This document shows, in pieces, positions 4,904-59,585 of a stretch of 64,000 nucleotides of DNA (position 1 is its first letter; each line of letters starts with the position of its first letter). A program made the translations under genes and the position numbers. Below the pieces are notes generated by a model. It was given only the letters and a program-made list of their open reading frames with translations. It did not search any database and was not told the origin of the DNA. The stretch comes from Dastarcus helophoroides (Eukaryota > Arthropoda > Insecta > Coleoptera > Bothrideridae), in assembly GCA_028583605.1 (NCBI GenBank), contig CM053325.1, positions 38,367,435 through 38,431,434 of the forward strand, read 5' to 3'.

Positions 4904-7900
4904 GTAAGTTCTGAGTCACTGATATAAGAAAAATTGCTTACTTTTGACCGTTTTTAGCTACTTGGCCTTGAAGCAACAGGACACACTAGAAATAAAAAAA
5001 GAATGCGTGGACACTTGCACCCACAAGTAGTAAGTAATTGGTTCCCACACATATTTTACGGTCATGGGAATTGTATAAAAAAGCAATAATACGCTTCTTG
5101 AAAATTTTGATAACGAGCTTATTTTTCCCGCCTTTTACTTATTCAGAAGTCAAAATTATGCGATGCTAAAGAAATTTAACGTTACGGGGACAATTTGAGA
5201 ATAGTTTTTAAATTAGTTTCTTTAGTATTTTTAATTAAATTTATTATTGTTTGATTTATTTTTTATTTCTACATATTAACTTTTTAATATTTTTTTATCT
5301 ATATTTTGTTTTTATTATTTTTCATTTCGGTTTTTATTGTTTTTATATAGATATATGAAATTAATAAAAATAATATTATAAAACCCACACTCGTGTCAAA
5401 AAATAGCATTCAAAAAAAAGTTTAATGCTTCTGAAGATAATAAAATTTTCAAAAAAGGGTAAACGTTTGGCGAAATTGAAATATTGATGTTAATGTTACA
5501 TGCCTCCCCGATCACGGGGAGGTTCTTTAAGAACTCGAAAACGGAAACAGCAAGAGTTTCATCTCTGGTATGGATGATATATGCCAGGAGTGTCCAAACT
5601 ACGGCCCGCAGGCAAAATCGGCCCTCCAGTCTCATCAATCGAGCCCGCGACAGCTAATGGCCTATCGTTGTTTCTGTTGCTGTGAGAATTTAGATAAAAA
5701 AAACCAGGGCTTGGAACCGGAACTGAACCGAAAACCGAAAAAAAGCCGTTATTTTCGCCGGAACGAGACCGAAAAAAATATAGTTTTCTTTCGGTTCGTC
5801 GAATTTATATACTTAAAACAGTTTTTACTTTATACTTAACATTGGTTTTTTTTGACATTTTAATTCTTTTTCAAAAGTTTACACAATTCCATGCAACTTT
5901 CTTCTCATCTTCATCTCTCATTTCTGATTTGATTAAATTCGAAACTCACCATTTCCACATTTTCTAGAAAATATTGACTTTATTCTCAAAATTTTAACCC
6001 AAATTAAAATTTTAAATTTTAACTTGAATCTTTTTTCAAGATTTTTGACTTTTTCTTGAAATTCTGACTTTTATCTGGAAATTACTCGAAATATTTCTTT
6101 TCTTCTCCTAAAATTTCGAATTTAAAATAAAACTAATTTCATCTGTTGTATCAAGCTAGGGAAACTCGGTTTTTCTTAGAATTTTTTTTGCAAATTCGAG
6201 TTTTTCTGGAAATTTTTCTGGAAACCTTTTTTAAAAAATTCCAAATTTACTTCTTTCTTTAAATTTTAATCTTCTTTTCCTAATTTGATATCTCTATTTT
6301 TTGAAGATATTAATCAAATTTTCCATATTTTGTGAATTTTTTCCTTTAAATTCCACTTTGGTGGAACGGACTGGTTCTTGGTTATCTTCGAAAATTGAAA
6401 AACAAATGTTGTCCCTTGAAACCAAGGAAGATTAAAAAATAGAACAAAGGCTGCTCTAACGCATTTCGATAGCCAAGATATCATCTTCAGATGGATAGTA
6501 ACATTTTAGAATTAGGTGTTAGCATCTCTCTGAAGATGATAGCTTGGGTATCGAAACGTGTTAGAGCAACCTCTGCTGTGTTTTTTAATCTTTCTTGGTT
6601 TCAGGGGACAAGATTTGTTTTCCCGTTTTCAAATTCCACTTTGATTTTAGTATTCCAATTTTTTTTCGAAATCCCAAATTTAAATTCCTGCTGCCGACTT
6701 CCTAAATCTTGCAAAAATTCCAAGATAAGATTTTTTCTCAAAATTTTCGCTAAAATCTCGCAGTTTCAAATTTAACCTAGAAATTTTTAAATTTCAAGTA
6801 AAAATTGCAGCACATAATCCAATATGATATTCCAATTTAAAGTCGGGATTTTGACATTGGGATTGAAATTTTTACAGTAAACTTGAAACGGTGGCATATT
6901 AGAAAATGTATAATTTAAACTTGCAATGATTTTGTTTACGTTAAAATAGTAATTTTTATTTTGAAGGCTGTGATTTTTTTTTCAAGATTTCGACTTTAGC
7001 CTCATAACTGTGATTTGTTTAGAATTTAGAAGTCAAAATTGTGTGTTCTCTTACATATTAGGTAATTGCTTTCGCTAAACTTCTGGTATAAACTCGAAAC
7101 TTCGGTACTTTGCAAGTTCCGGCCGTCTGCTCCTTGAGCTTTTGTGTCAAAAACCCGTTCTAAAAATGGTAAAGTTATTGACAAATTTTTTAACTATAGC
7201 TGAAATTATTTCTAAAATTTCGTCTTTAAAATTGAAATTCGCTTACATTTTTTTTTAGAAAATTGTCGTTGAGCTTAAAATTTCAATTTTTTTGTAGAAA
7301 ATTTAAGTTTAGAAATATTTGAAATTGCAGTTTTTGTGGAATTTTTCTCTTTTATTCTTAAAATTTACATTTCCATTAAAAATATCAACTTTTTGCTGAA
7401 AATGTTAGCAGAAGTTGGATTTTAAACACAAAAGTGCTAATTTGAATTAAAAATTTTATGTTATTTTTTATTTTGAATAATGATTTAAAATCTCGAAAGG
7501 ATATCCAAATTTCAAAAAAAGACAACATTTTTGAAAATGTTTAAGTTTTGAAGAAAAACAAACTAAATTTGTGACAAACAATTTTTAAAAATTAATCTCA
7601 AAATTTCGAATCCTTAAAATTTTGAGTTTTCGAGTTAAGGGTCGAATATTCGATAATTCCAAATTTAAACTTATATTTGTCAATTTCTTATAGTCCACAT
7701 CTCAACTAAATAATTTCGAGAAAAATGTCTATAATTAAAAAATTAAAGTTAACATGTCGATAAAAAGGATTAGGGGGTTGCTAAAGAAAGGCTAAATTTT
7801 GTTTAAAATCGAAATTTTAGAAAAAAAAAATAATAAAAAGTACGTACAAGTTTAAATTTAAAACTTCAGCATAAAAAAGTTAAAATGTGGAAAAAAAAAG

Positions 7901-13900: not shown

Positions 13901-16900
13901 GCATATTCACATTCATACAAAAAAAAAACTCTTCTGAGTTTCGCTTCTGGTATGGTGGTCATACTGAGTTACCGTGCTCTTCTGTCTAAACTTTTTTATC
14001 CTTTGTACCAATTTTCAATTCAGAAGAGTTTCGCCTCTGGTATGGTCGACATACTGAGTTATCGTGCTCTGATGTTTTGAAATTGGCCTTTTCATTCTTT
14101 CATTTTTGCATATTCCCTTATATTTCTCTTTTCATTTATTGTTTCTTTTCTTTGTTCCTGAATAAGGCCCCTACGATGGTGGGCGAAACGTCGAACACTT
14201 TTAGTAGTTCTTTGACACGGTCCAATCCCGGAAGAAGTATATCCTGTATAGACACTTTATTCCCTAGGTATGTTTCTCTCTGACATAAGTATCAACTATC
14301 CTGAGAGAAGTTATCCGAGACTTATCTCACAGCTAGGAGGAGCTAGCTTCTCTCAGGGTAATTGACATTTATGTCAGAGAGAGAATATATTTTATGTCAG
14401 AGAGAAATATGCGGAATAAAGTGTTTAATCTAAACGCACCCTAAACCATCCTAAGAGAAGCTATCTGAGACTAATCACACAGCTACTATAAATTACACGA
14501 CATAAAATGTCGATACAAATTTCAGCCAGTGGCTGACATATATCTCAGAAGTTGTAGTCGTCTACTTTCGAGGTATTTTATGCGATTAACTATTGTATAT
14601 CACTTATAATATTGAGATACTATTCCATGTAAGTAATTTGCAAATTTAATTAGACAAATTTTGATTGTTTAAAGTAGTAGACATTTTATATCGACACGTT
14701 ATTTCAGTTAAAAGTGTCAGCAATTTTATTCAGTTATATTTGTGTCATAGTGTAAACGGGCAAGAAAATTTAGTCTCAGATACCTGAGATTTCTAACATG
14801 AAATAAGTCTCTAATCTAAACGCACCCTTAGAACTTGAATTTTGAAAAATCCTCTCTTAGTGCTCACCTGCGTATTGTGGGGAACACCTGTATGATATTT
14901 CATGATCCTAGATTTACCGGTTTAGACTGTGCGTTGTCTGTCAGTCTGTGCTTAGGGATTTATTAAATAAATATTTTTGTTTCCAGGTCTTACGCTTTTT
15001 ACCGTCGCCTTGTACAGATATTGCGTATCTTTCGTCGTTTGGTTCGTCCTTATTGCGTCTTTGGTGTTATTTTACCTTTTAACAGCATCCTTATGGTAAT
15101 TATAAATATCAAGTTGTCCTCATTCATGTTAAACGTGGATCTTCTGGCTACAGTAATAATTCATAAATTATTCTAGGTATCTGTATCTCACTGTCCCCAC
15201 CGAGGAGAGTAAAGGTGGCTTGACAACTGGATTATTTTGGGCAATAATAATAACAATCGTATCAGGGTTTTTCACGATGATGCTTGTTGGTTTACACAAA
15301 AAGATCCGCTTGATAATTCAGCTGTTCAAGGAAGCGTCCGTAGCGATTTTAGCTATGCCCTCTATATCATTATTGCCAATTGCGGTAAGTTTTTTTTTTT
15401 AGTATTGTTAATCTTCAGAATGCCTCACTATTTCTTGCACACAAATACAACCTACCTCAATTCAGACTTTGATAACTAGTAGCCAAACTATATTATCGAA
15501 GTTTGCGCAACAGGATCTTAATTATATTTATTTGCTTTTTATTTTTTTTTTATATTTCTTAACTGTATAGAAACAATATAAAATTAGATAAACGTTTTGT
15601 GGAATGCTGAATCAAAATTTTCTTATAATTTTTTTGTACGTGCCGCCCCGAATCCTCATCAAGAATTAATTCGAGTTATTTTTTAGGGGTCGATTTTGCA
15701 AGTTTTGTTTGTGACAATTTTCGTCTCGGTGGTAGTCGCTTTGATTTCCGCCGGTACTTTAATGGAAGTACAACCAGGGGTGTACGATTACATCCCCAAT
15801 GCTGCGATGGTCGTGACCGGAGGGATTAGCTTCTTCCTGTTGGTTTGGTACTGCCAGTTTGTCATCGATTGCCAATACATGATTGTGTCAGGAGGAATTT
15901 CCTCATGGTTCTTTACATCGTAAGTGAATTTTTAACTCACAACTGGTCACTTTTTTGAGCGAAAATGTTTTTAGCTGGCATGTTCTCAAAGATCTTCTGC
16001 GTTGGTTTTAAATAAAAGTCAAAGTTTGCACAGCTAATTTAATAAGTTAATTGAAGAAGAGAGCATCGCTTTCGAAATGCGAACGTACTTTCTATTTAAG
16101 GTTGGGAACGAGTTATTTTTTTTTTAATTCTCAACTGGGTTTCAGCCGAAAAGTTTTACATTCACTTCGATACATTTTTGATGAAACCTATCCTAGAGCA
16201 CAGCTTACGCAATTTTTTCTGGGGCCGATCATTTATAGGGCTTCGAACCGAAACTAAATAAAAACCAAGAACAACCTTATCTCTTTAAGAATAAAAGCTG
16301 AAGTTGATTCAAAAATTATCGACTGATTAAGTGTTTTTTGAAATTATGACATCTCTTGATTTGAATACTGAAATATTAGAATGCAGAGGACTCGAAATTT
16401 ATATTTTTTCTAGAAATGTTTAGTTTTTTCGGCCCTAATTTGGAAAATTTCAATTTAATTTTTAAATGTCTACCTTAATTTGAAAATGTTAGATTCTTGT
16501 CTTGTAGCATCATTTTTTTTTAAACTTTAACTTTTGAGTTTGAAGTTTTGATGGCCGGTACTGGACACGGGCAAATCGGGCAAATGTCCGATGGACTGAC
16601 CTAGTTGACAAGCGCAGAAAAAATTGTGCTTTATGAAAAAAAATCATTGAGTGATTTCTTTACTTCACTTTAAACAGGCAATAATTTCACACCAAAATAA
16701 ATTTTTCTATTTAATCACGAACTATTTATGTAAAATACAGTCACTAATAAGAGTGACAAATATGCCAGTTGCATGTTATCAATGAAAGCACAGTTTTCCT
16801 TGCACACTGAAAATGTACCTCACGTGTGGTGGCACTCCAAGTACTGCACATTCTTTTAGGTTTTTCTTTCAAAGATGCTTTTCAAGGAATATTGAGACTG

Positions 16901-19900
16901 AATTCCAAATTTTCCCGAAAGCTATTAGTTTCTTTTCATAAAGTTCTAGTTTTTCTCTAATTTTTTCATAAAAATCTTTGTTTAAACTGATCATTTTTAG
17001 TTGTGTCTAATATTTCGGCTTTATTTTCGAAACAACCATTATTTAATAAATTTAAGTCTTCTAGAAATTTTAATTTTTTAAAAATTAACTTCAACAAAAT
17101 TCGATATACTAACGATGCAATTGTTTTATGCAAGTAGAATGCAAATTCATGCAGCCCTTCAGGCGTGTATAGTGAATCATAGGTAGCTGAACTACCAACA
17201 GTTGAAACACTGCCACCTAGCGAAGCGGTTGCTCTCTAGGAACAATTTCCCAGAAGACAAGGATTCTAATGCACAGACCAATAGGTGTGAACATTTATTA
17301 GATTCGAAGTTTGGAAACCAAAGACCGGTTTCAATATTGTTAGATCTCGTCAGTTTGGTATATCCAACTTGAATGCTAACAAATGTTCCGACAAGTAAGT
17401 ACTAAAGAATTCACAGACGTCAAGCGTGTGACTCTTATTACTACCACCTATTGGTCCATAGAGAAATTATGGCCATCGCCAACAGTGTCGTATGCAAGTA
17501 GAATGCAACCTAGAGTACAAATTCATGCAGCCCTTCAAGCGTGTATAGTGAATCATAAGGTAGCTGAACTACCAACAGTTGAAACACTGCCATCTAGCGA
17601 AGCGGTTGCTCTCTAGGAACAATTTCCCAGAAGACAAGGATTCTAATGCACAGACCAATAGGTGTGAACATTTATTAGATTTGAAGTTTGGAAACCAAAG
17701 ACCGGTTTCAATCTTGTTAGATCTCGTCAGTTTGGTATATCCAACTCGAATGCTAACAAATGTTCCGACAAGTAAGTAATAAAGAATTCACAGACGTCAA
17801 GCGTGTGACTCTTAGTACTACCACCTATTTGTCTATAAAGAAACTATGACCATCGCCAACAATGTCGCATGCAAGTAGAATGCAACCTAGACTACATGCA
17901 ATTGTTTGTTTAATCTTTTGCATGAATTTGCACTTAAAATTATTATTATATGAAATTTCAACATTAAAATCGAAATTTCGACTATTTTTTTAACGTTTTG
18001 TATGTTTTATACCCCAAAATTCTGAACTTGAAATCAACATTTTAAAAAAAAAAGTAAAATTTTGTAGTTTAAGTCCATTTTGAAATAAAAGTCGAAATTT
18101 AGATAGTAAACCTTAAATGGCGACTTTTTTGACAACATTCCTAATTTAAGCTTTCATGTGTTGGCTAGCATCTTGACTTTTTCTGAAATTTTTGACTGTT
18201 TTGAATTTTTGTCAAATATTTGTAAGTTAAAGTCATAACTTCGTTTTTTCTAATATATTTCGCTCTTTGTTCACTAAATATTTCAGCTATTTTTTAAAAC
18301 GTCCACCGAAATTTCTTTTCTAGAACTTTTGAGCTAAATGTTTTTATAAAGCTCAATGTTTTCCTCAATATTTTGACTTCTTTATTAAACTTTTTACCTG
18401 TATGTGAAAATTTTTTATTTTTTTCTAAAATGTCGTCTTTAAAATTAAAACTTTGACTATTGAAATTTTGTCCCGAAATTTCAATTTTCTTCTAGCAAAT
18501 TTTTCGCTTTTTTTAAATTTTTTAAATTTGGAAAATTGTTAGTCCAAAATATCCACAGGGTGGACCATAAGTAATGCTACACAAAGCAATGGTGGATTTT
18601 TCGAATAAAAATAATGTTATTTAGCTACATTTACCTTATACCAAAAGTTGATATTAGAGATACAGGGTGTCAAAGTTGAAACAAAAATTTAAATTTTTTC
18701 GTATAATTATGGAATGGATTGTAATATACGAAATTTGGCACAAGGGAATTTCTTAAGTCGACAAACTCTAATTTGCCAACATATTATCAATAGCTGCATA
18801 GCATCATAACTTTTTTGTGCACCCACGTATATTAATTTCAAATAGGTTATTTTATTACCCCATTTCCTTTACGTAAAAAAGGTGTACTTTCTGAAAGTTG
18901 ATACGAGCAACCGTTTCCAAGATATTTGCCTTTAAAACTTGACGTGCCTTGGTTTTACTGAGATATTAAATTTCCGAAGTAGGCTTGAAAAAAAGTAATC
19001 ATAAGACAGCTTTGAAACTTATTTATGTCAAATATTACTTTGATGATAATATTATTACCTAAATTTTGAAAATCTCAATAAAGAAAATCCAAAAAATTAA
19101 GACGTAATTTATTTTCTAACATAGAGATGTGAGATATGATCTCTGAGTCCGCACAAAAAAATTTTAATAGTCTGGGTGGTCAAAGCAGATATTTGGAGAC
19201 AAATTTCAATAAAGAACAGCCAGATTTTTCATTGTCTACAATCCCTTTACATGAAAAAGGTCATTTCCCACATGCTTATTTTTGAAAATAAATTTTGTTT
19301 TGGTATTTTATTTAAATTTCTTGATTTTTCTTTTTTATATTTTAAACATTTTTTTATTTTTTTTTATTTTTCAATATTTCTTCCTCATTGTTCCCTTTCC
19401 ATGTTATGCACTGCTGACAAGCTCAAATGAGAGCGAAACATCGATGTCCAGTGCTACAACCTTTTTTATGTATTTTTTTATAATTTCCTAATTTATCAAG
19501 AAAAAAAAACAAATATTTATTTTTTCCATATCTAATTTTTTGTCTTCTATTTTTCATTATTTCTATTCTATGTAAAGTAAACTAACCTATTAATTTGTGA
19601 ACTGTCATGAAGTGACGTTTGCAATAAATTTAAATATCACGTAGTCGCATTTCAAAAACTGTTTAGAAAATTGTCAACAAACCATAAACATTTAAATATT
19701 TCCAAACTGGGCCGAAGAAATGTTAAATAAATTAAAAAAAACATTAGAACTCTTTGTTGACTCGAAATGGTAAACAATTAGTTTTCTTATTATACAGAAT
19801 GTTTACGAACATTGGTGACCTAGATCTGGGGCATCCTAACCCTTTTTTTCATTGTCATTGGTCCTTTACGCTAGTGCCGTGATTTTTTTTTAATTTTATT

Positions 19901-21080
19901 TTTTTACAGAAAAGGCCATTCTTGTAAATTTCTCGTAAAATGGACCATTTTTAAGGAAACAACATATACAGACATTAATGTTAAAAAAACAACAAATTTC
20001 ACTCGATTATATATTATTGCATTCAAATCATAATAGAAACCCTAAAATAACACATCTTTATGACTGTAGCCACACCTATACGCTCCTAATATCTACAGAT
20101 TCCGTATTTTTGGTTTGGTCAGTAAATCAGTCTAGTCTTTGGGTCAGTACTCCATCTAATATAAAATCTCTAACTTAACTGAGTGACTGAACCTGCGAAC
20201 CTAGTTAATTAAAATAGCAACTATAGGTGCACCGGATTCTGCGAATGAACTAGGTGCAAGAGAACAGGTCCGCGGTTCGCTACCCATCTCTAGTAAAATC
20301 CCAATTAAAATTGAAGGGTGCAGGCAAAAAAAGCGAAAAGTCAAAATAAGTAGTTTTAAGAGGTAGATTCTCTATCATTTTTCTAATTATTTCTTATTTC
20401 TTTAATAAAAGAAAACGAAAATGTATTAGAGCTCGATTGTTTCTAATTTTGTGCATTTTTAACAAGTGAATTTAAATCAAATGAAACTTTACACCGTTGG
20501 CTAGCAGATGATGCAGGTAACTCTATTTTGGAAAAAATTGACTTATGATCTTCTTTGCCTGTACACTTCAATTAAGTACTAAAATTAACGGTGGAAATTA
20601 AACAAAAAAAGTCTCAATTCATTTGCAACTCGCAGTTCATTTTTTAGAATATTCTTAAGGATCATTTGTATTTTAGGTCCAAACCACAAACCCGATCATC
20701 CCTCGTGACCTCCGCTAAAAACGTATTCAATTTCCATTTGGGTACAGCAGCGATTGGGGCTCTCATTTTGGTACTGACGAGAATGATCAAGGTCATTCTT
20801 TTACTTCTGACAAAGAACGAAAGGATGAGATATCTCATAAATAGCTGTTTGTCCAATATAGAATCGGTTCTTAAATTTTTTTCCAGAAATGCTTACATCC
20901 TGACAGGTAATTTCGTAGTTTCGCTGTAAGTTAGGATGATGATGTCAGATTGTGGTACTACACTATTGACTTAAGTACTCTTATACAACCTTAGACCATA
21001 TGTACTGATGGTATGTATGTATGTATGTACTGATGGTATGTATGTATGTATGTATGTATGTATGTATGTATGTATGTATG

Positions 21081-21114
<34 letters not shown>

Positions 21115-24100
21115 TGTATGTATGTATGTATGTATGTATGTATGTATGTATGTACGTATGTACGTATGTACGTATGTACGTATGTACGTATGTACGTATG
21201 TACGTATGTACGTATGTACGTATGTACGTATGTACGTATGTACGTATGGACGTATGTACGTATGTACGTATGTACGTATGTAGGTATGTACGTATGTACG
21301 TAAGTGCGTACGTGCGTATGTACGTATGTACGTAGGTGCGTACGTACGTACGTACGTATGTACGTATGTACGTATGTAGTACTTATGTACTTATGTACAT
21401 ATGTATGGTATAAGGGGGTATAAGGATACAACAGTGTAGTAAATTTGACGTCACCGTCACTTGAAGTGTACATACAATAAAAATGTTTGAACCATTTATA
21501 TTTCGATTGGAATCTGAAAAATATTAGATAATATACTTGGTTTTTTTTATAGCGCTTCATGGCGAACCCTTCTTCAAATCGGGAAAGAGAGCCGCCAAGC
21601 TTATGTATGGTAATTTAAAAGAAGTTGTCGCTTTAAACAGTCTGGGACATTTAGTCCTTATAATGTCGGAGGTGCTAATCGTAATGATCAGCGGTATTAT
21701 CGCCATTTTTATTTGCATGGTAAGTAAATTATTCCATTGATTTTCTTTAATATTAAAAAAGTAATAGGTTATATTACATTATTTTCTTAAAATTTCGACT
21801 GTTTTTAGAAATTTTAAAAAAAGTTAAATACTTGAATTAAAGCCAACATTTTGTGATTTAAATAAAAAGAGAACTGGTCGAATGAAGAACTCAATCATTA
21901 CCGCAATGCCGAAACTACTGAAGTCAGAAACATGAAATTTGGGCAGTAGATTTCTTTCATGGCAAAGGTGTGCAATAAGAAGGGATTTTTGGAAATTCCT
22001 ATACTAAAGGGTTAAAAAGGGAATGAAACGATGTTTCGAAATTAGTATAGGACAAGATTAATACTGCATTCTATAACCTAAAATTTTGTGTAAACAATCT
22101 ATGAAAAAAATAATTGGATACGTGTTTGGTCGATTTTAATGATTCAACCCCACGATAGACTAGTCCCCCAAGACTGTTTTTGATCATTGCGTACTGTGCG
22201 CAGGTCAATAATGGGCACAACACGACAGAAGTTGTAGACTTGATAGAACAAGACTTGTCATGCGATGCCATGGCCGTGGAGAGAGAACGTATCAGAGTAT
22301 GTATCATTGTGGATGTATCTAGCTAGCAGCGTAGGAATATAAATTAATTAGGCTTGATATACAGATTGACAATAAGGTTTTAGTTTTTGCAGTGTTATCA
22401 CCAATATTACCTCGCTTTATCTTGAACAAGATCCGTAGCAGATAAAAGCAATGATTAAACACAAAGGATTGTATGTATGATTAGATACTTTTATTTACTG
22501 TCAATGAAATATATTTCAATTTTCAAAATTTTAATTTTTCCATTTTTACTAAAATTTTGTCTTAAACATTTTTCAAAAGAATTAGCTTTATGGCCTTATT
22601 GTCAAACTGAAATGTTTTTATTAATTTTCAAATTTAAATCAGAATAATCACAAATGGGACATTTCTTTATAACACCTGATTTATCTTCTAATGATGTCGA
22701 CGTAATTTCGTGACTATGTCTCAGATGAAATGAGATCTGATTCTTTTGATTAAAGTTTTTTCAGCAAATGTCACATATATGAATTTAAAGTGGGTTGGTT
22801 TAGATTTTAACAAAGGGGCCCTCTTCAGCTGGATGCTTTGTTCTCAGATGTCTTCTTAAATTACTGTTACTAGTAAATGTAGACTTACAACTGAAAATAT
22901 TTGAGATCTTTTTGATCCATGTTTATTTAGAGAGAAATGCCAATATTTAGAGAGAAATTTTAAGAAAGTTAATGTTTATCTGTATCGTCAATCACTCGTA
23001 TATTTTCAAACTCACAACATTTCACAAAAGATCGGAAGTTCAGACGGTTAAGTGAAATAAAAAGTATTTGGAAATATTGCCCTTTGCGGTGTTGGCGCGC
23101 TTTTACGTCCGCTTTCACGCCTACCACTGGCATGCGCACAGCACGCAATGATCAAAAACAGTCTTGGGTACTAGGCGCTCGTAACTTACGCCAGTATGTC
23201 CATGCGCATGTTGTGACGTAGTACGTGATGTAAAAGCCTAGATGTTTACATTATACCGTGCTTCCCGTAGTACGAATAAATTCTATAAAACCGCAAACAA
23301 ACATATTTAAAAAAAATGCTCGAACCGGTCGTTTTTTATTTCTAAAACCCCACTTCTTCACCCCTAAGAGCTAGCAACCCCAACTTTAAAAATTCAAATA
23401 GCAAAGTACCCGTTGCGATACCACGAATAGATCTTTTTATACTGAATGCAACAAAAGTTTTTTTTAATCGGTTAATAAATAACGGAGATATTTGCCAAAG
23501 TGTTAGCGTATTAGCAATGTTCTGTATCACATATTTGCTTTGCAATTAACGCAACCTGCGCGTATGGAACGAATTTGCGTCAAAATCTCAGCATACCGGT
23601 GTAAATCTATCGTGTTCAACCCCTAAGAGGATAAAAAGGGATGAAAGGGAGTTTTGAAATTACGATGAAACAAGAGTTAATAATTCGTTTGAAAAACTAA
23701 AATTTTATGGAGGTAATCTGTGAAATAAATAATTAAACAAGTATTTGGCCGATTTTTAAAATTCAATTCTTAAGTGAGTAAAAAGCTTATCACAAATGGC
23801 GTGTAGAAAATTGCCAAATACATTTTATAATCCTAAATTTCGTATGAAGAATATATGAAATAAATATTTTGGTCGATTTTAATAATTGAACCCTTAAGGG
23901 TAGCAAAAGGGGTATCACATTTTGAATGTAACAAAATTAAAAAAAGTATTTATAACCTAAAATTCCATATAAAGAATATATGCAAGCAATGACTAAACAT
24001 GTATTAGATCGATTTTGAACATTCAAGTCTTAAGCTAGGGTTTCCTACAGAACGGTAACGTAAAAGAGCGCCCGTAATGTTACGTCGAGTGATGTCACCT

Positions 24101-30100: not shown

Positions 30101-31164
30101 GTTCTCAAAAGTCCAAACTTTCAAAAAATTCAAGTTCAAAAAAAGAAATAAAATGTTTTTTAAAAATCAAATTTAAAAACAGTCAGACTTGTAAAAGAGT
30201 TCAAATTTCGAATTAAAATTTCGAAAAAATGTCAACATTTTCCAAAAACTTCAAAATTTCGACTTAAGTCAAAATATCAAAAAAAAAAATTGAGATATTG
30301 AAAAGACAATTTTCAAAGTAGTTGAATTTTCCAAAAAAGCAAATTTTAATAAAGACCAAAATGATTTTAAGAAAGTAAAAAAGCCAAAATTTAAAAGAAA
30401 TTGAAATTTTTAAAGTCAAAATTTCTAGAAAAAATTAAAATTTTGGGAGTCGAACAACAAAAGGTCGACATTGTGAAAAAAGTGGATATTTTAAAATGTC
30501 AAAATTTTCGAAATGAGCCAAAAGTTTTAAGAAAAATGGAACTTTTCAAAAAAGTGGGAATCTTCAAAAGGGTGACCCGGGAATCTTTTTTTTTCACATA
30601 GAAGAAGGCGCGAGTATCAGCTAGTATTTATATAAATTTCTATGAATTAGATTTGGGAACATTAGTAATGTTATAGTGAGTATACCTTCCAATGAAGTAT
30701 TAATCAGGTTAAAGTCGAGTATGCCAAATTGACGAGATCTAATAAGATCGAAACCAGGTTTTGGCTTCCAATCTATGAATCTGATAAATCTGCCCACCTA
30801 TTGATCTATGCTTTAGAATAAATTGTCAGTTTTTATATATAATAATTAGCTAATAGTAGATTTAGCAATGATCGCTGTGATTTCAGGCTACTGGGGTGAC
30901 GTACTATATGGCACCCGCCTTGATTTGCGCTTATGCAGCAGCTCTGATTGTTTCCTGCTTCTTCAGCGTCTATAAGGTAGGTTATTCCACTTAAATAAAA
31001 TTTTAAAGCAACAGAAATGTGTGTTTTAGTCCTCCGTTGATACGATCTTCATATGCTTCTGCGAGGATACTTTGCTTCACGATGGCATGACCAAGCCTTA
31101 CGCCATGCCAAGAGGTCTGATGCAATTCATTGAAGATTCCAAAGCTGTATTGAACAGTAAATAA
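4767..31164 (+). CDS. Choline transporter-like protein (SLC44/CTL family), 11 exons, 5' end missing
   Basis: Eleven exons join in frame with GT-AG introns to give 499 residues and a stop: 4767-4903, 4958-5029, 9660-9714, 9799-9862, 14987-15095, 15177-15384, 15687-15919, 20677-20906, 21553-21719, 30887-30976, 31030-31164. The reading is diagnostic of the CTL family (Pfam choline transporter-like): GYDDCGNVCGV near the start, a CIP motif before the second membrane segment, then strings of hydrophobic helices, and near the end FICFCEDTLLHDG and PYAMPRGLMQFIED. Family members are multi-pass plasma or organelle membrane proteins that move choline or related cations; the substrate of this paralogue cannot be read. 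The N-terminal cytosolic stretch and first helix must lie left of the window; the next gene (56196) shows what they should look like. The cysteine-bearing loop is short (ECVDTCTHKY then IDHFCIPNGD). The introns, up to 9.2 kb, are packed with mobile DNA. Confidence 0.9.
4958..5029 (+). CDS. CTL gene 1, coding exon B
   Basis: Reads YLALKQQDTLEIKKECVDTC followed by THK, the cysteine-bearing part of the large first loop. The acceptor is TTTTTAG. The donor GTAAGT lies inside an apparent TAGTAAGT, so the last two bases (TA) are completed by the next exon to a Tyr codon rather than a stop. Confidence 0.8.
6362..6640. repeat. Palindromic Penelope-associated repeat, two arms
   Basis: The left arm (6362-6495, minus orientation) and the right arm (6512-6640, plus) are inverted copies of one another. 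Each runs from a hairpin CTGAAGATGA...GAAA, through a GTTAGAGCA word and CTTGGTTTCA, and the left arm continues to a GGAACGGACTGG-like end. The same unit flanks the Penelope-like element near 54194-54330 and recurs near 59456. Confidence 0.65.
6526..6566 (+). ncRNA. Hammerhead-like hairpin, extra-base variant
   Basis: The order is stem I CUCU, core CUGAAGA, one extra U, a helix GAUA/UAUC, then GAAA, short stem III ACG/UGU, U, and stem I AGAG. This is the type I hammerhead order except for the extra base between the core and stem II. Activity is unknown. The minus-strand sister at about 6453-6490 is more decayed. Confidence 0.4.
8774..9650. other. Intron sequence without recognised gene
   Basis: AT-rich and partly TACTAAA-repetitive (8940-9350). 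Bases 9530-9615 are homologous to 14150-14245 and include a decayed copy of the same hammerhead-like hairpin. The open frame at 9393-9581 shows no recognisable protein. Confidence 0.5.
9660..9714 (+). CDS. CTL gene 1, coding exon C
   Basis: A 55-base exon after TTTTCTAG, reading (Y)TLIDHFCIPNGDPDLVKE up to the donor GTAAGA. CIP is the conserved cysteine motif at the end of the extracellular loop. The phase fits exon B directly, so no extra loop exon is needed in the 4.6-kb intron. Confidence 0.75.
9799..9862 (+). CDS. CTL gene 1, coding exon D
   Basis: Reads DIRKDISNAWWAIFVSVLIS, then LG. It holds the conserved D...W region and the start of a membrane helix. Acceptor TTTGCAG, donor GTGAGT. 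Confidence 0.85.
10036..11105. repeat. T-rich degenerate array, inverted copy of the GTCGAAATTTT family
   Basis: The reverse complement of this stretch is the same A-rich array seen at 2740-4440 and 29245-30640. Its unique end (here at 10036-10112, inverted) matches the tail at 30570-30640, including the word GAAGGCGCG.GTATCAG. A CTTTTGTGGGGGCAGATA boundary follows on the other side. Confidence 0.6.
11700..12132 (-). pseudogene. LINE ORF2 C-terminal remnant
   Basis: The minus strand reads KLSKALGLLTA, then a frame break, HLIKLNLAESDRC, LCGTEKETSLHIVCACPNLA. This is the post-reverse-transcriptase region of Jockey/R1/CR1-like non-LTR retrotransposons, normally of the form LTGH..L..HL..L......C..C......ET..H...C. 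Stops and a missing GH show it is dead. Confidence 0.6.
12180..12790. repeat. Low-complexity AT-rich array
   Basis: Degenerate TTTTGACTTTTTC and AAATTTCGAC words in both orientations, of the same general composition as the longer arrays. No gene seen. Confidence 0.45.
12810..13883. mobile_element. 1.07-kb long-inverted-repeat element
   Basis: The left 200 bases and right 240 bases are inverted copies. They start AAGGTGATTCTAGAAGTAGT and end with its complement, and both contain GAAGGTTAGTTC and GCGAAACGTGTACAGAT-like words. The middle has no recognisable protein. No clear target duplication could be read. Confidence 0.65.
13936..14070 (+). repeat. Two direct repeats, 90-base period
   Basis: The 45-base block starting GAGTTTCGCTTCTGGTATGG recurs 90 bases later with about five changes. 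Function unknown. Confidence 0.6.
14154..14196 (+). ncRNA. Decayed hammerhead-like hairpin, extra-base variant
   Basis: GUUC, then CUGAAUA, a GCCC/GGGC helix, GAAA, ACGU as stem III, C, and GAAC closing stem I. The order is that of a type I hammerhead, but the core G8 is U and extra bases precede stem II, so activity is unlikely. A relative lies near 9540. Confidence 0.35.
14276..14840. repeat. MITE-like sequences with AATCTAAACGCACCCT ends
   Basis: A 110-base palindrome (14276-14384) with CTCTCTGACATAA/TTATGTCAGAGAG arms is followed by AATCTAAACGCACCCTAAA. That word recurs at 14815-14832 in the same orientation. It looks like overlapping or partial MITE ends. No gene. Confidence 0.45.
14987..15095 (+). 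CDS. CTL gene 1, coding exon E
   Basis: Almost wholly hydrophobic: LTLFTVALYRYCVSFVVW, then FVLIASLVLFYLLTASL. It completes one helix and makes most of the next. Acceptor TTTCCAG, donor GTAATT. Confidence 0.85.
15177..15384 (+). CDS. CTL gene 1, coding exon F
   Basis: Contains WYLYLTVPTEESKGGL, a helix (FWAIIITIVSGFFTMMLVGL), a basic loop (HKKIRL) and IIQLFKEASVAILAMPSI, a conserved family stretch. Donor GTAAGT. Confidence 0.9.
15687..15919 (+). CDS. CTL gene 1, coding exon G
   Basis: Contains two long hydrophobic helices and the conserved WYCQFVIDCQYMIVSGGISS region followed by WFFTS, which aligns with the WxxxFIxACQxxxVAGAVxxWYF signature of the family. Acceptor TTTTTAG, donor GTAAGT. Confidence 0.92.
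15920..17114. other. Intron stretch, degenerate repeats only
   Basis: AT-rich intron DNA. A solitary hAT-like end lies near 16239 (GGGCTTCGAACCGAAACTA). The open frame at 16051-16257 has no recognisable product. Confidence 0.4.
17317..17359 (-). ncRNA. Type I hammerhead ribozyme, retrozyme unit 1
   Basis: On the minus strand: stem I ACCAAA, core CUGACGA, stem II GAUCU-AACA-AUAUU (one mismatch and one GU pair), GAAA, stem III ACC/GGU, cleavage base C, stem I UUUGGU. Predicted cleavage lies between 17323 and 17322. All invariant core bases are present; the stem II mismatch may weaken it. Confidence 0.75.
17694..17736 (-). ncRNA. Type I hammerhead ribozyme, retrozyme unit 2 (intact)
   Basis: Minus strand: stem I ACCAAA/UUUGGU (6 pairs), CUGACGA, stem II GAUCU/AGAUU with loop AACA, GAAA, three-pair stem III ACC/GGU, cleavage after GUC (between 17700 and 17699). 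Every catalytic position matches the hammerhead consensus. The distance to the first ribozyme is 377 bases, the predicted RNA monomer length. Confidence 0.85.
18556..19314. mobile_element. Fold-back element, left half, cut by another repeat
   Basis: Matches 27857-28660 base by base with small differences: the start CAGGGTGGACCATAAGTAAT, GATACAGGGTGTCAAAG, CTTGACGTGCCTTGG and TATTTGGAGA. It runs to the centre of the element (GGTATTTTATTTAAATTTCTT) and then changes abruptly into the hammerhead-bearing repeat. A 40-base gap in the left arm lacks the GGGGGCGCTACC word of the other copies. Confidence 0.75.
19315..19745 (+). repeat. Hammerhead-bearing composite repeat, copy a (headless)
   Basis: From a T-rich lead through TTCCTCATTGTTCCCTTTCC, the ribozyme, and the conserved tail (AAGTGACGTTT, ATATCACGTAGTCGCATTTC, CAAACTGGGCCGAAGAAATG). 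The tRNA-like head found in other copies is absent. Confidence 0.75.
19408..19454 (+). ncRNA. Hammerhead ribozyme, copy a, core mutated
   Basis: Same fold as 58977-59023: stem I GCACUG/CAGUGC, stem II GCUC/GAGC, stem III ACAUC/GAUGU. The core reads CUGACAA instead of CUGACGA, so the essential G8 is A. Predicted inactive. Sense orientation in a CTL intron. Confidence 0.7.
20311..20571. mobile_element. MITE, TTGAAGGGTGCAGGCAAA ends, copy 1
   Basis: A 261-base element with inverted ends TTGAAGGGTGCAGGC...GCCTGTACACTTCAA. The interior shares TTAGCAGATGATGCAGGTAA-like sequence with the copy at 32525-32723. No coding capacity. Confidence 0.65.
20677..20906 (+). CDS. CTL gene 1, coding exon H
   Basis: Contains FNFHLGTAAIGALILVLTRM (the family HLGTVAxGS motif), the loop NERMRYLINSCLSNIESVLK and FFSRNAYILTG (the NAYI/N-A-Y motif). 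Ends with one base of a Gly codon before GTAATT. Confidence 0.9.
21009..21408. repeat. Tetranucleotide microsatellite (TATG)n then (TACGTATG)n
   Basis: About 400 bases lie 100 bases after a CTL exon. The left third is pure TATG. From about 21154 alternate units become TACG, then an impure end. Long open frames on both strands (MYVCMYVC..., THIHTYIH...) are repeat artefacts, not proteins. Confidence 0.98.
21553..21719 (+). CDS. CTL gene 1, coding exon I
   Basis: Reads ALHGEPFFKSGKRAAKLMYG, then NLKEVVALNSLGHLVLIMS and a helix EVLIVMISGIIAIFICM. This is the conserved region F..AAK.A...L. Preceded by a poly-T acceptor ATAG; donor GTAAGT. Confidence 0.9.
22160..23174. mobile_element. 1.0-kb element with about 42-base inverted ends
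   Basis: The left end CTAGTCCCCCAAGACTGTTT (to about 22201) and the right end (23134-23174) are inverted copies of about 42 bases, sharing TTTTTGATCATTGCGT.CTGTGCGCA. The interior holds a decayed zinc-finger segment on the minus strand. The class is uncertain. Confidence 0.65.
22600..22900 (-). pseudogene. Zinc-finger (C2H2/BED-like) fragment inside a transposon
   Basis: The minus strand reads FSCKSTFTSNSNLRRHLRTK then HPAEEGPFVK, a stop, ICDIC, a stop, KNFNQKNQISFHLRHSHE and KKCPICDYSDLNLKIN. These are decayed Cys2His2-type fingers; SNLRRHLRTKHP is also typical of BED fingers in hAT transposases. In-frame stops make it non-functional. It may be the transposase N-terminus of the host element or a captured gene piece. 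Confidence 0.5.
24032..25134. mobile_element. 1.1-kb element with about 45-base inverted ends (AAGCTAGGGTTTCCTAC)
   Basis: The left end AAGCTAGGGTTTCCTACAGA, then ACGGTAACGTAAAAGA, is mirrored at 25090-25134. A second internal TTTCCTACAGAACG occurs near 24134. The interior is AT-rich with no coding capacity. The flanks (TTAA left, TTTAA right) suggest, but do not prove, a TTAA target. Confidence 0.65.
25140..25660 (+). repeat. Hammerhead-bearing composite repeat, copy b
   Basis: A partial head (AAGAGCATGTAAATTCGAC, CTCTCGGAGTAGTTGTTTCT, GTGGATCGGGCTTCAAATAT), the middle, the ribozyme, and a tail to CCACCATGAAGAAT near 25670. It follows the 24032-25134 element directly and runs into a LINE fragment. 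Confidence 0.75.
25363..25409 (+). ncRNA. Hammerhead ribozyme, copy b, core mutated
   Basis: Stem I GCACUG/CAGUGC, CUGACGA and stem II GCUC/GAGC are intact, but the invariant GAAA is AAAA (G12 to A) and stem III has a mismatch (ACUUC/GAUGU). Predicted inactive. Sense orientation in a CTL intron. Confidence 0.7.
25672..26001 (-). pseudogene. LINE reverse transcriptase fragment
   Basis: The minus strand reads CISPTLFKIYIDNIITEWK, then LYADDLVLFAETENHLHRH, MYALQNICQEYDM, a stop, ISTNETRTMAFSGKYP and VRTKIVLNNTALEQEHFKYL. This is reverse transcriptase motif B (G/CISPTLF), the catalytic YADD box and the following conserved region of an insect endonuclease-reverse-transcriptase type LINE. One in-frame TAA and truncation on both sides mark it as dead. 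The 130-codon open frame on the opposite strand is its shadow. Confidence 0.8.
26035..27550. repeat. A-rich degenerate array, copy 2
   Basis: About 1.5 kb of AAAAATTTTGAAAAAGTCGAAA-like variants on the + strand. The 121-codon minus-strand open frame (Phe-rich) at 26547-26912 is a composition artefact. Confidence 0.6.
27561..27833. mobile_element. pogo-like MITE, 273 bases
   Basis: The left end CAGTCGACTCCCGCTAAAGT and the right end CTTTAGAGCGAGTCTACTG are inverted copies with a few changes. CAGT termini and internal TTAAAGTTGC words are typical of pogo/Tigger-derived MITEs. The left flank is TA; the right flank is TG, so a TA duplication would be imperfect. Confidence 0.65.
27857..29234. mobile_element. 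Complete fold-back element, 1.38 kb, TATA flanks
   Basis: The ends CAGAATGGACCATAAGTAAT and the complement CAGGGTGGTCCATAAGTAAT are outermost. The two arms stay recognisably inverted for about 500 bases, with shared words GATACAGGGTGTCAAAG, GGTGTACTTTCTGAAAG-like and AAAAGTTATGATG, around a unique centre of roughly 300 bases. Both flanks are TATA (27853-27856 and 29235-29238), consistent with a TA-type target. No protein. Partial copies lie at 18556-19314 and 32731-33841. Confidence 0.8.
29245..30640. repeat. A-rich degenerate array, copy 3, with unique tail
   Basis: The same word family as 2740-4440. It ends with GTGACCCGGGAATCTTTTTT, ACATAGAAGAAGGCGCGAGT and ATCAGCTAG, a tail shared with the other two full arrays. 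Confidence 0.6.
30705..30815 (+). repeat. Single diverged retrozyme copy
   Basis: Homologous, in reverse orientation, to 17265-17370. It matches through the ribozyme and on into TTCCAATCTATGAATCTGAT and CCACCTATTGATCTATGC. It is a truncated monomer without a second unit. Confidence 0.7.
30723..30765 (+). ncRNA. Degenerate hammerhead ribozyme (retrozyme copy 3)
   Basis: Stem I GCCAA/UUGGC and stem II GAUCU/AGAUC are perfectly paired; relative to the 17.7-kb copy both show compensatory or pair-improving changes. The core begins UUGACGA instead of CUGACGA (C3 to U), so it is predicted inactive. Sense orientation, 120 bases before a CTL exon. Confidence 0.65.
30887..30976 (+). CDS. CTL gene 1, coding exon J
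   Basis: A 90-base exon reading ATGVTYYMAPALICAYAAAL, then IVSCFFSVYK, the penultimate membrane helix. It lies after a 9.2-kb intron filled with repeats. Acceptor TTTCAG, donor GTAGGT. Confidence 0.88.
31030..31164 (+). CDS. CTL gene 1, last coding exon K
   Basis: Reads SSVDTIFICFCEDTLLHDG, then MTKPYAMPRGLMQFIEDSK and AVLNSK stop. The DTIFICFCED and YAMP...L..FI words are the C-terminal signature of CTL proteins. The stop TAA is at 31162-31164. Confidence 0.92.
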   Translation, partial: SSVDTIFICFCEDTLLHDGMTKPYAMPRGLMQFIEDSKAVLNSK

Positions 31165-51318: not shown

Positions 51319-52729
51319 CAGGGTGTCGGAACTGGGATTTGTCTGCGCAAGTAGGCGTTTGAGTACTAAGAGATGGCAAAAGATGGTGCTGATATCACAA
51401 CAAAGATATGTGCATCTCTTTCTATCACATTGTTAATTTGACATTAATGACATTTAATATAATTGACATTTACTATGTCAATGTCAAAAGCTGTTGTCAT
51501 TTAAAACTTTCATCAATAGATGTCTCTTTCAATGTAAAATCTGGGAATTTATAATTTTAAACGTTGATTCATTGGTAATATTGTTTGAATGTCATTTTAA
51601 AAATTGCTGACCATTCAAATTTTGTCTTCCATTTATTGCAGTGTATTCTTTGTTTATTTTGATATAAATATTCTTTCTGTTTGTCTTAAATGTTGTTGTT
51701 TTTCGTAATTGAAAACTACTTTACACTCTTATTGAGTTTATGCGTTCAACAATAGAACTGACGCCTGCTACAAGGTAAGAAATCTTAATAATTGCTCACT
51801 GAATTCATAACATTTATATGCTTTATGGGAAAGAAAATCTAACAATAAAAATTGCTTTAGGTGAGCGTACTAGCTGAAAATTGTGTAAGGAATATTAGAG
51901 TTGGAGAATCAATAACCAGGAGGCTGTTTGAAATTGAAAAGGAGAAATTTATTCAAGGAGCTACCACTAAAACTTAGGAAACTTATACTGCTAACGTTAA
52001 ATTTATCAAGTTAGTATCTAAAAATGTGTTTTAATAATGATTACTTATATATTTTAGTACTTTAAACCTATTTAAAAATAGCTACACGTAATTGTCAACA
52101 GAGTTTATATTATATCATAACAAAAATTCTATCAATTATGAAACAAATTATGCCGAATCCATATCAATAAAAATTTGTGTTGTTACGTTTTCCACACAGG
52201 GTCAATTGTTTTGTGATGTTAATGTGCGTTCTAATCCCTTCAAATACAGTGCAAAAATCGTAAATATAACCTAACTTTTTGTGCAAATACAACATACATT
52301 TTTATTTATGTGCATCGAGCTTTAGATATAGTAATTTAAAATAAAATGTTGAAATAATGTCAAAAATAAATAATTTTTTAATACATAGAATTTTATAAGT
52401 GACTGCCTTATAATTTGCCTTATATCCATAATATAAATCCAAATTTTTATAGTATTGCACGGTATTAAATATTTGTGATTTAAAATATGTGGCCTAGTAC
52501 ATTTTATATATGTATAACATATTTTAAATATACAATTTATTCTGTGCAATATTCGAAATAATTTTAAAAATATTTTGAAGTTCCCGCGTTCTGAAAAAAA
52601 GCTACAGTTTCCTGTAATACTGACATTGACAGTTAAGATATAGGGATAAGAGATTCCCATAGATGGCGGTGAAAACAGTATCTCATCTCTTTCTAAAGGA
52701 GTAGGGCATCTTTTTTGATCTTGTCTTTG
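51319..52729. mobile_element. hAT-like insertion, 1.41 kb, 8-bp duplication
   Basis: The ends are CAGGGTGTCG and, inverted, CAAAGACAAG. The eight flanking bases are identical on both sides (GCGCAACC at 51311-51318 and 52730-52737). Removing it restores the left arm of the Penelope element, which pairs with the right arm. The interior has no transposase; the open frame at 52322-52735 is not recognisable. Confidence 0.75.
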
Positions 52730-52759
52730 GCGCAACCATTCATAAGGTTGTCTCCAGCC

Positions 52760-53989
52760 TTATGGATGGCCAATTAACATATAATTCTTATTTACTACTC
52801 TTAACACTTTAATATTATTATCTATCCTACGGTTTAATTCAAAAGCATGTCTAGCCACACTTGACTTCTCAGTTCTTCCGTACCTCAAATGAGTCAAATG
52901 CTCCTTCAGTCGGATTTTAAGACATCGTCTAGTTTGCCCGACATACTTTTGAGGACAATCCCTACATGAAATTTGGTAAATACCGGACTTATCCGTTTGC
53001 TCTACTTTATTCTTTAAACTACCCGAAAGCGAATTTAATTTTCTGTTAGAACTATAAACAACCCGAAAACCCTGTTTACATAAAATTCCACCCAAACCAT
53101 GCGTAAGCGAGGGTTCAAATGGAAATGAGACGAACTTGAAGTTTTTGTTTTCATCAGCTCAGAAAGTTGTGATATTTACCAATTCACATTTGAATTTTTT
53201 CTTATTAATAATTTTATAAATAATATTTGGATCGAATCCATTAACTTCAGCTATATGTTTAATTGTCTACGACTCTTTTCCGAATCTTTCCCTATTAAGA
53301 GGAAGAGTCAGAAAGCGATGGGCAAGAAAGTTGAAGCTTGCCATTTTGTGTTGTATGCAATGGTTTGAATCAGAAGTTATATAGCGAAAGGTATTAGAAT
53401 CTTTTCTGTATACATTAAATTTCAATCTATTTTTATTTCTAATAACTAAAGTGTCTAAAAATGGCAAGCTGCTTCTTTTTCCAACTCTATGGTGAATTTA
53501 ACTGTTGGAAAACGTGAATTTAATACATCAATGAAATTATCTAAATTTTGATTTGTTGTGTCAAAAACAGCAAAAATGTCATCTACATATCTAATCCCAT
53601 ACCCTAGGAAACAAACTACATTCATTTTTAAAACGATTTTCAAAAACACTCATGAAGAGCTCAGCCATGAAAGGTGACAAAGGATTTCCCATGGCTGCAC
53701 CCTCAAGTTGTTGATAAAACTCGTTATTAATCTAGAAATAATTTTGATCCATACATATTTTCGTTAATGAAATATATTCGTCAATAATTTTACCTGATAG
53801 GTTATTAAATTCCAGCAGATCTCGAAGGTATAATAAGGTTTGTGGTATGGGTACACTGGGAAAGAGGGAAGAAACATCAAAAGAAACCAGCATTTCACCC
53901 TCCGACAACTCTTCATTCTGAATTTTCTTCACATACTCTTGGAAATTCTTGACTGACAAAGTGAGTTGTTGGAATTCCATGCCATCCAT
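52760..53989 (-). pseudogene. Penelope-like reverse transcriptase with GIY-YIG endonuclease
   Basis: Reading the minus strand from 53989: MLVSFDVSSLFPSVP (RT motif A), EGAAMGNPLSPFMAELFM (motif B), a frameshift, YVDDIFAVFD (catalytic motif C), then FLDTLVIR and a further break. The C-terminal domain (from 53095) reads SGIYQISCRDC, KYVGQTRRCLKIRLKEHL, which is the GIY-YIG nuclease unique to Penelope-like elements. The product would be a target-primed reverse transcriptase. Stops after NYF near 53732, a frameshift near 53640 and a break near 53460 inactivate it, and the N-terminus is missing. Confidence 0.85.
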
Positions 53990-54193
53990 AAGGCTGGAGA
54001 CAACCTTATGAATGGTTGCGCCGGGCCTTTAGGCCATTCGTCTCTGTTAAAAATAGTTAAGGTTGATAGATAAGGAATTGTGACACTACGACGTGTATAA
54101 TTAGATGCGCATGCGTGTTCGGATGCGGTCGATCATGTACGAAGTGAATATTCTTAGTATATAAGGTTAAATTTTAAGATTGGGTGTTAGTAT

Positions 54194-54234
54194 CTCTCTG
54201 AAGATGACAGCTTGGCTGTCGAAACGCGTTAGAG
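54194..54234 (+). ncRNA. Hammerhead-like hairpin beside the Penelope element (best copy)
   Basis: Stem I CUCU/AGAG, core CUGAAGA, extra U, stem II GACAGC-UUG-GCUGUC (six perfect pairs), GAAA, stem III ACG/CGU, cleavage base U. Only the extra base departs from a type I hammerhead. Sister copies are near 6453, 6526 and 59499, where stem II keeps its pairing despite base changes. Confidence 0.5.
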
Positions 54235-54846
54235 CAACGTTTGTTGTGTCTTTTAATCTTTCTTGGTTTCAGGGGATAAGTTCTGTATTTCAATTTTTGA
54301 AGATAACCAAGGACCAGTCCGTTCCACCATCATTATTTCTTTCATAAATTATTTTCCGAAAATTTGAGTTCATAAAACGCATTAGGGGAAGCAGAGGTAT
54401 TGGAGTTCAATTATAAAAACGACATAGAAAAATGTCATGGGGGTCGAAAGGCGGGGGGTTTACTGTAGAAATAATAAAGTGGGTGTGTTTGTTTGCGGCT
54501 TCCCTCATCTAAATTTTGTCAATTAGTTTTTGGCAATAAGTCCATAATTTTAATAATTATTTATTATTGCTACTAATATTTTAGGTATGAAGGCATTCTA
54601 TTTAACCATGACGTAAATACTTTTCAATGATTTTAACTACATGTTTTTGGATTTCAACTTTAACACAAAATGATCGTTTGGCGTAATACCGTTCAAGTGA
54701 CCCTTAAGCGATGTTTTACATTTTTTCAACAGATATATCCAGAAACTAAAGGAAATCAAAAAGTAATAAGCCTAGAAAAAATTACAAAAATAATATAAGT
54801 AATAACAAAAAAAGCAGTAAATTATAAGAATAAGAAAGAAAAATTT

Positions 54847-59353: not shown

Positions 59354-59455
59354 ATATTGAAGATTTCCTTGAAATTCTCAATTTGTTTACGAAATATCGA
59401 GTGTAACCTCAACACGTTTATTAAAATATCACTCTAAAATTAAAATACAAACCTT

Positions 59456-59585
59456 AACCCCTGAAACCAAGAAAGATTAAAAAACACAAAAAACGTTACT
59501 CTAACGCGTTTCGACAGCTAAGCTGTCATCTTCAGAAATATACTGAGCTACTAAGTATCTCTCTGAAAATGATAGCTTGTCACAT
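59456..59585. repeat. Penelope-associated palindromic repeat, truncated
   Basis: A minus-strand arm with CTGAAACCAAGAAAGATTAA and the hammerhead-like hairpin (59499-59540, stem II GACAGC/GCUGUC perfect, stem I lost) faces a truncated plus arm (CTCTCTGAAAATGATAGCTT, 59554-59580). Same family as 6362-6640. Confidence 0.6.

Follow-up and report, generated by a model that had tools for sequence, protein, structure and literature searches.

The locus and its features

The window, a stretch of 64,000 nucleotides from contig CM053325.1 of Dastarcus helophoroides, contains an insertion of 769 b which is identified from its sequence as a copy of an animal (non-LTR) retrozyme family (Table 1). TRF reports a tandem repeat at 17128-17896 with a period of 377, 2.0 copies, 94% matches and a score of 1396, and the two flanking copies of ATGCAATTGTTT are identical at 12 of 12 bases, while flank pairs taken from different insertions share at most 7 bases (n = 200 pairs). 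A first-pass annotation of this DNA had described a dimeric insertion with a 12-base target duplication, which these results bear out. Its description of two 377-base units holds for the period and is corrected for the total, as ~2.07 units span the 769 b because the first unit lacks, in the alignment, 12 nt near the RNA 3' end; this gap sits just before that end. Read in its RNA sense, which is the minus strand, the copy has its 5' end at position 180 of the unit and its 3' end, after one full turn, at site A, one of two fixed family sites described below, and it is classed as a direct copy with an A end (L001; L numbers denote the sampled loci). The ends of the insertion do lie away from the ribozyme cleavage sites, as had been noted, and the RNA 3' end is a fixed start site of the family rather than an arbitrary stop.

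The GC content of the retrozyme is ~0.40-0.41 (0.41 in the insert) against 0.31 in the window. The insertion holds no stop-to-stop frame of at least 90 aa, so it has no RT or GIY-YIG coding of its own and is ruled out as a Penelope-like element proper, and no LTR, PBS or PPT was noticed on reading the 377-nt unit. A second, older retrozyme fragment lies at 30720-30819 on the plus strand (unit positions 337-372 followed by 1-60, ending at site B, as mapped by blastn), where the first C of the hammerhead core CUGA is altered and the hammerhead is damaged.

Plus-strand matches to the choline-transporter-like family (CTL, PF04515) flank the insertion, and their order suggests that they are exons of one gene. 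The retrozyme most likely sits in an intron of this gene, in antisense; the first-pass annotation had placed it in a CTL intron, where the gene family stands and the intron status follows from the order of the matches. Transcription of the CTL gene would not make the ribozyme, as the hammerhead lies on the opposite strand. CTL in the sense of C-type lectin is rejected, as PF00059 has no match in the window and 4 in the genome, and a regular-expression search for lectin motifs gave no match. Stop-bridged frames between 13.0 and 22.9 kb on either strand have no Pfam match, while the profile search of the genome did find PF04515 there. A long GTATGTAC tandem array at 21011-21405 overlaps the end of one CTL match.

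Elsewhere in the window, a plus-strand open frame of 634 aa (48416-50317) shows a weak zf-AD match below the cut-off and has 923 relatives, two of them from named ants among the 120 listed; it may belong to a mobile element or a multicopy family. Broken remains of a Tc/mariner-like transposase occupy 943-1815 on the minus strand, where 1240-1815 contains DUF4817 over its cut-off and a Tc3-type HTH below its cut-off, while 943-1239 has no Pfam match and is grouped with these remains by eye.

Table 1. Features of the window discussed in the text (HH9 E values were computed for the 1,001 bases searched).
Feature	Position	Strand	Evidence
Penelope-like fold-back, site 2 / site 1, 13-bp duplication AAATTCCACTTTG	6360..6629	.	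fold-back analysis, 1 of 17 fold-backs left out
Upstream choline-transporter-like (CTL, PF04515) match, profile 1-113, probable exon	15244..15567	+	E 8.3e-5 for genome, 2 stops inside
Left target duplication copy, 12 bp, ATGCAATTGTTT	17115..17126	.	exact match to 17896-17907
Retrozyme insertion, 769 b, RNA 3' end = site A (..CTACTTGCAT) at low-coordinate side	17127..17895	-	TRF, alignment, blastn, end class
Type I hammerhead, unit 1; predicted cleavage between 17323 and 17322	17300..17371	-	Rfam HH9 26.7 bits, E 3.1e-4
Internal site A, unit 2 (unit position ~207)	17486..17498	-	blastn mapping, family ends
Site B region, unit 2 (unit positions 54-66), no end here in window copy	17634..17646	-	blastn mapping, family ends
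Type I hammerhead, unit 2; predicted cleavage between 17700 and 17699	17677..17748	-	Rfam HH9 (RF02275) 32.8 bits, E 3.4e-6
Right target duplication copy, 12 bp	17896..17907	.	exact match to 17115-17126
Downstream CTL (PF04515) match, profile 113-318, probable exon	20615..21178	+	E 1.3e-5, 3 stops inside
Further CTL (PF04515) match	21534..21719	+	E 2.2e-7
Penelope-like GIY-YIG endonuclease fragment	52760..53158	-	Pfam GIY-YIG E 1.9e-4, 22.1 bits, just under Pfam cut-off 22.6; scored on longer stop-bridged piece 52322-53158
Penelope-like RT fragment	53732..54028	-	by eye, without Pfam match
Penelope-like end: minimal hammerhead (stem III palindrome ACGCGU), site 1 (..TATTTCAA), site 2 (..CCGTTCCACC)	54189..54328	+	hammerhead by eye

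Hammerhead ribozymes

Each unit contains the minus-strand type I hammerhead that had been predicted, and both match the Rfam model HH9 below its gathering score of 52; nothing in the whole window, these two hammerheads included, reaches an Rfam gathering score. The core (CUGACGA and GAAA) and the cleavage triplet are present, as are stem I, formed by ACCAAA/UUUGGU together with an outer helix, and stem II, in which unit 1 carries one mismatch. Stem III had been given as ACC/GGU and is to be redrawn: these six bases are contiguous and form the palindrome ACCGGU, so that one hammerhead by itself can make no more than a single A-U pair with a CCGG cap, while two hammerheads can form a common six-pair stem III, and the hammerhead is therefore predicted to work best as a dimer. 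When the core is constrained to stay single-stranded, the fold energy is -33.1 kcal/mol for the dimer versus 2 x -12.8 kcal/mol for two monomers. Counting against this, unconstrained minimum-energy folds pair the core and do not form hammerheads (-16.4 kcal/mol for one stretch, -35.2 kcal/mol for two). Among 119 unit junctions of the family, core, palindrome and stem I are exact in 63 and the core is intact in 94, and HH9 in 8 scanned loci out of 72 gives 26 matches of 28.4-37.3 bits, all below gathering.

Copies in the genome

The exact hammerhead core pattern (CCAAACTGANGAG..GAAACCGGTCTTTGG) has 591 matches in the genome (539 Mb, 50 contigs searched) versus 0 for the reversed pattern. Two samples were drawn, neither of them random, one of the copies closest in sequence to the dimer in the window and one of the first 30 hits of the pattern along contig 1; together they comprise 72 loci, or 66 after 6 overlapping loci were dropped. 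After 4 chains cut by locus ends were left out, 69 insertions were classified, where L037 and L038 are one duplicated locus counted twice and the direct entries include the composite loci L050, L051, L059 and L064. Fold-backs with outward 3' ends make up 38/69 of these insertions, and a direct dimer such as that in the window is among the simpler arrangements that the family shows. The direct copies (n = 31) span 0.34-4.57 units, some of them below one unit. At L047, L051 and L059, retrozyme fold-backs have apparently been re-amplified as local tandem arrays together with flanking DNA.

Target duplications also occur at other genomic copies. With 9 composite or cut insertions left out of the 69, exact flanking repeats of at least 9 bases surround 26/60 insertions (fold-back 21/35, direct 5/25), whereas mismatched flank pairs reach a maximum of 7 (n = 200). 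The duplications are 9-16 bases long, where some lengths may include a few element bases, with a pooled GC of 0.26. Such a repeat is missing from 20/25 direct copies and 14/35 fold-backs, which counts against the mechanism proposed below. Ordinary satellite DNA, meaning long head-to-tail arrays without target duplications, is rejected, as the copies are dispersed and have duplications.

Two fixed RNA 3' ends

In the 66 loci, 103/107 RNA 3' ends fall into one of two windows, A or B, each of 29 nt, together 15% of the 376-nt unit and set after the first ends had been seen. Site A (192-220 of the unit) lies mostly directly after CTACTTGCAT at 207, and site B (41-69) lies after GTGCAT to GTGCATTAGAATCCTTG, ~54-66 nt past the cleavage site; L029 at 41 and L067 at 192 are window-edge cases. 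The direct copies end at A in 20 cases, at B in 10 and elsewhere in 1, while their 5' ends are scattered from 1 to 336. Extra bases, at least two of them (TA, TAG, ATTAG), occur at or beside GTGCAT of site B in L010, L020, L021, L022 and L034, and look as if the enzyme had stuttered on starting.

The two ends of a fold-back follow an A/B rule. An A end stands opposite a B end in 35/38 fold-backs (22/23 in the similarity sample, 13/15 in the pattern sample), A/A and B/B pairs number 0 each, and the remaining 3 have one end elsewhere. All 35 of the 35 assignable pairs are thus A/B, for which a hand calculation gives P ~3e-11, as independent ends would give a probability of A/B of at most 0.5.

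In young copies, the arms of a fold-back also share a template. Private variants are common to units of the same arm at a frequency of 0.194 (165 pairs), to units of opposite arms at 0.215 (41 pairs, 13 insertions) and to units of different insertions at 0.037 (13,618 pairs), with 7 loci and all segments under 120 nt left out of the counts, and in the young copies L010 and L020 most private variants are common to both arms. These common variants would most simply be read as the outcome of copying a single monomeric circle from the two strands of the target, with later homogenisation of the inserted units as a less simple alternative; in 4/13 fold-backs the opposite arms have no private variant in common, which counts against the single circle. 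For the family as a whole, repeated rounds of copying on a circle would be the best reading.

A satellite-like origin is highly improbable, in which DNA recombination would have spread and inverted a tandem repeat whose hammerhead has decayed and which no longer passes through RNA. The local arrays at L047, L051 and L059 and the many damaged hammerheads would fit such an origin, while the dispersed insertions with exact target duplications, the fixed 3' ends and the private variants common within an insertion speak against it.

Predicted fold of the putative circle

Folded as a circle, the consensus forms a stable rod of -133.7 kcal/mol versus -90.1 +/- 5.6 kcal/mol for 100 shuffles, in which sites A and B pair with each other. 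The two helices of this A-B pairing are predicted in 37/58 and 35/58 units, respectively. Compensatory changes are absent from the A-B helix, the whole structure has 2 compensatory cells versus 4-8 in slid controls, and RNAalifold picks another partner for site B. The facing of A and B is kept out of the main explanation because the pairing is limited to 37 and 35 of 58 units and shows no covariation; it is the bold part of the concerted two-site reading given below.

The same pairing bears on another explanation, in which the template would be a linear multimer or another linear RNA whose 3' ends at A and B are produced by a double-strand nuclease cutting the A-B helix. This we regard as improbable: the consensus fold does pair A with B, as such a nuclease would need, yet the pairing is predicted in little over half of the units, and the arms of more than 2 units and the near-identical units of young insertions (L010, L020 and L021) point to a single monomer that was copied again and again, although units homogenised later within their locus would give the same picture. 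Copying round a circle is the reading followed below.

Penelope-like elements in the window and the genome

Penelope-like remains occur at several places in the window, including a third end at 59433-59579. Rfam reported no hammerhead at the Penelope-like end at 54189-54328. The GIY-YIG fragment has 3,985 candidate places for relatives in the genome, of which the best 150, query included, were scored, but no relative in viral contigs and none among PDB sequences at E up to 1; open frames reach at least 824 aa among the best 150 of the 3,985 places. The exact hammerhead pattern of these elements (PLEs) has 2,639 matches in the genome and its reverse 0.

Across the sampled loci and the window, the Penelope-like copies have two fixed 3' ends ~35-40 nt apart, with 7 and 1 loci left out of the end counts. 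Site 1 stands opposite site 2 in 17/22 fold-backs, site 1 opposite site 1 in 1 and site 2 opposite site 2 in 0, while 4 have one unassigned end. Among the best 150 places listed, neighbouring Penelope coding places within 6 kb are arranged -/+ (outward) in 32 cases, ++ in 2 and +/- in 1, where one stretch of contig 7 is apparently duplicated and the counts are partly non-independent. Adjacent Penelope ends in the sampled loci are -/+ in 26 cases, +/- in 4, -- in 3 and ++ in 2, so that not all point outward, which counts against the mechanism proposed below.

The local alignment of the Penelope start region with the retrozyme scores 16, which is reached by 246/300 shuffles, and 18 on the reverse strand, reached by 103/300 shuffles; the two thus show no similarity beyond chance, which counts against the retrozyme as a passenger of this Penelope element. 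Near retrozymes, 2 exact Penelope hammerheads occur in 271,400 letters versus 1.3 expected, and no enrichment is claimed. One Penelope copy lies inside a retrozyme exactly at site A with a 14-bp duplication (L009:2610-2845), and another inside a retrozyme at site B with a 9-bp duplication (L060:1307-1386). Penelope insertion aimed at retrozyme site A is not claimed as a rule, as the exact pattern, searched genome-wide, matches L009 only. At L037:2030-2056 and L038:2024-2050, a Penelope tail (from site 1 to site 2) directly adjoins the A end of a retrozyme; such a junction may have arisen when the RT, copying Penelope RNA, switched to the retrozyme as its template or, alternatively, from an old nested insertion.

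LINE twin priming yields 5' inversions and duplications of similar length, and its second start is scattered. An ordinary target-primed reverse transcription by a LINE-type or another non-Penelope RT, with the fold-backs as the products of such twin priming, would therefore give inversions and duplications like those seen here, but it is an unlikely source of them, as the second retrozyme start is the second fixed site opposite the first in 35/38 fold-backs, the resident Penelope element obeys the same two-start rule, and no poly(A) or simple repeat was seen by eye at the retrozyme 3' ends. LINEs are named beside PLEs as candidates for the enzyme that moves animal retrozymes, with PLEs called a strong candidate (PMC7229834; this and the other papers are cited from excerpts), and the in vitro use of two internal start sites by purified Penelope protein (PMC11167929) again favours a Penelope-type enzyme.

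Proposed mechanism

The size of the family, the fixed 3' and scattered 5' ends, the A/B rule, the target duplications, the one template of each young insertion and the Penelope parallel can be read directly from the letters. They are probably explained by a retrozyme that travels as a circle-borne passenger, on which a Penelope-type RT/GIY-YIG protein acting in trans starts at A or B and yields both fold-backs and direct copies; the circularity, the self-cleavage, the joining of the cDNAs and the Penelope family as the source of the enzyme are what we infer.

Tandem copies would be transcribed, and the ACCGGU palindrome would bring neighbouring hammerheads together in a dimer that cleaves, after which a host RNA ligase could close the 376-377-nt monomer into a circle, which would be stable because the lone hammerhead in it is weak. 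The Penelope-type RT/GIY-YIG endonuclease, supplied in trans, would cut both target strands ~9-16 bp apart, and one of the two fixed sites of the circle, A or B, would serve as the start of reverse transcription. If the two target strands are primed at different sites, their cDNAs would run round the same circle until they meet and are joined, leaving a head-to-head fold-back with A and B outside. If one strand only is primed, a direct copy of 0.3 to 4.6 units would result, and the window insertion, with its A end, about two units and 12-bp duplication, may be such a case.

A more specific version is possible and is put forward tentatively, in which the rod of the circular RNA presents two opposed start sites, both target strands are loaded onto them by a dimeric Penelope RNP, and the two cDNAs are made in concert on one circle with the fold-back as the usual product. 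The retrozyme would then relate to the Penelope element as a SINE does to a LINE, except that its template would be circular and two-headed.

The signature of A opposite B is a footprint which can be checked in any retrozyme genome, and it resembles the two internal starts of the purified Penelope protein. The site 1/site 2 rule likewise offers a simple reading of head-to-head Penelope copies, for which a 2013 paper tentatively invoked self-priming on antisense RNA (PMC3846280). Should the circle be demonstrated, the family would exemplify in nature a reverse transcriptase that runs round a small circular RNA.

Comparison with known systems

The closest known elements are the metazoan non-LTR retrozymes, whose published circles measure ~170-400 nt (Cervera and de la Pena 2020, PMC7229834). 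The family shares with them the type I hammerhead, the tandem units, here of 377 nt, a GC content below 45%, a predicted circle that is strongly self-paired, target duplications longer than 4 bp and the coexistence of Penelope elements (PMC7229834), and it lies within the unit length of 150-450 bp and the GC content below 50% that define the kind. It differs in that 38/69 insertions are fold-backs and the 3' ends are two fixed sites, whereas tandem copies are described, and fixed starts are not mentioned, in the excerpts of PMC7229834 and of a review (PMC7761336). The literature searched, as far as its excerpts extend, yielded no description of fold-back retrozymes or of fixed RT start sites in retrozymes; the kind of element is itself known, and it is the two-ended, Penelope-like integration for which no description was found there.

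Most invertebrate hammerheads have a stable helix III (PMC7761336), which the retrozyme hammerhead of D. helophoroides lacks. In this respect it is like the hammerheads of axolotl HHR_Amex1 and newt satellite 2, where stem III has one pair and a palindromic tetraloop, and which are weak alone and efficient as a dimer (PMC7229834), while sequence and host are different.

Plant LTR retrozymes are also non-coding, contain hammerheads and have a proposed circular RNA (PMC4918200). They possess type III hammerheads, LTRs, PBS/PPT and 4-bp duplications (PMC7229834, PMC7761336), unlike the present copy, where the type I topology and the 12-bp duplication rule out a plant-type LTR retrozyme.

The mode of integration finds its parallel in Penelope-like elements. 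The purified Anolis Penelope protein cuts and extends both strands (Frangieh 2024, PMC11167929) and starts at two adjacent internal RNA sites with a 'tail' between them; no difference in its start site is reported between the strands and the assays contained no circle, so that these results do not extend to the one-of-each rule (PMC11167929). In Adineta vaga, a tail is optionally present on one inverted Penelope repeat (PMC3846280), and such a tail would come from the site 1/site 2 rule. The retrozyme lacks a long open frame and a pLTR, resembles the Penelope start region in sequence no more than chance would give, and has its start sites ~150 nt apart in sequence versus ~35-40 nt in Penelope. 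The two kinds of element are alike in the two internal RT starts, the cutting and extension of both strands and the head-to-head inverted copies, to which the 8-10 bp duplications and the optional tail on one inverted repeat are also likened (PMC11167929, PMC3846280), and a palindromic stem III is common to the retrozyme and Penelope hammerheads of this genome.
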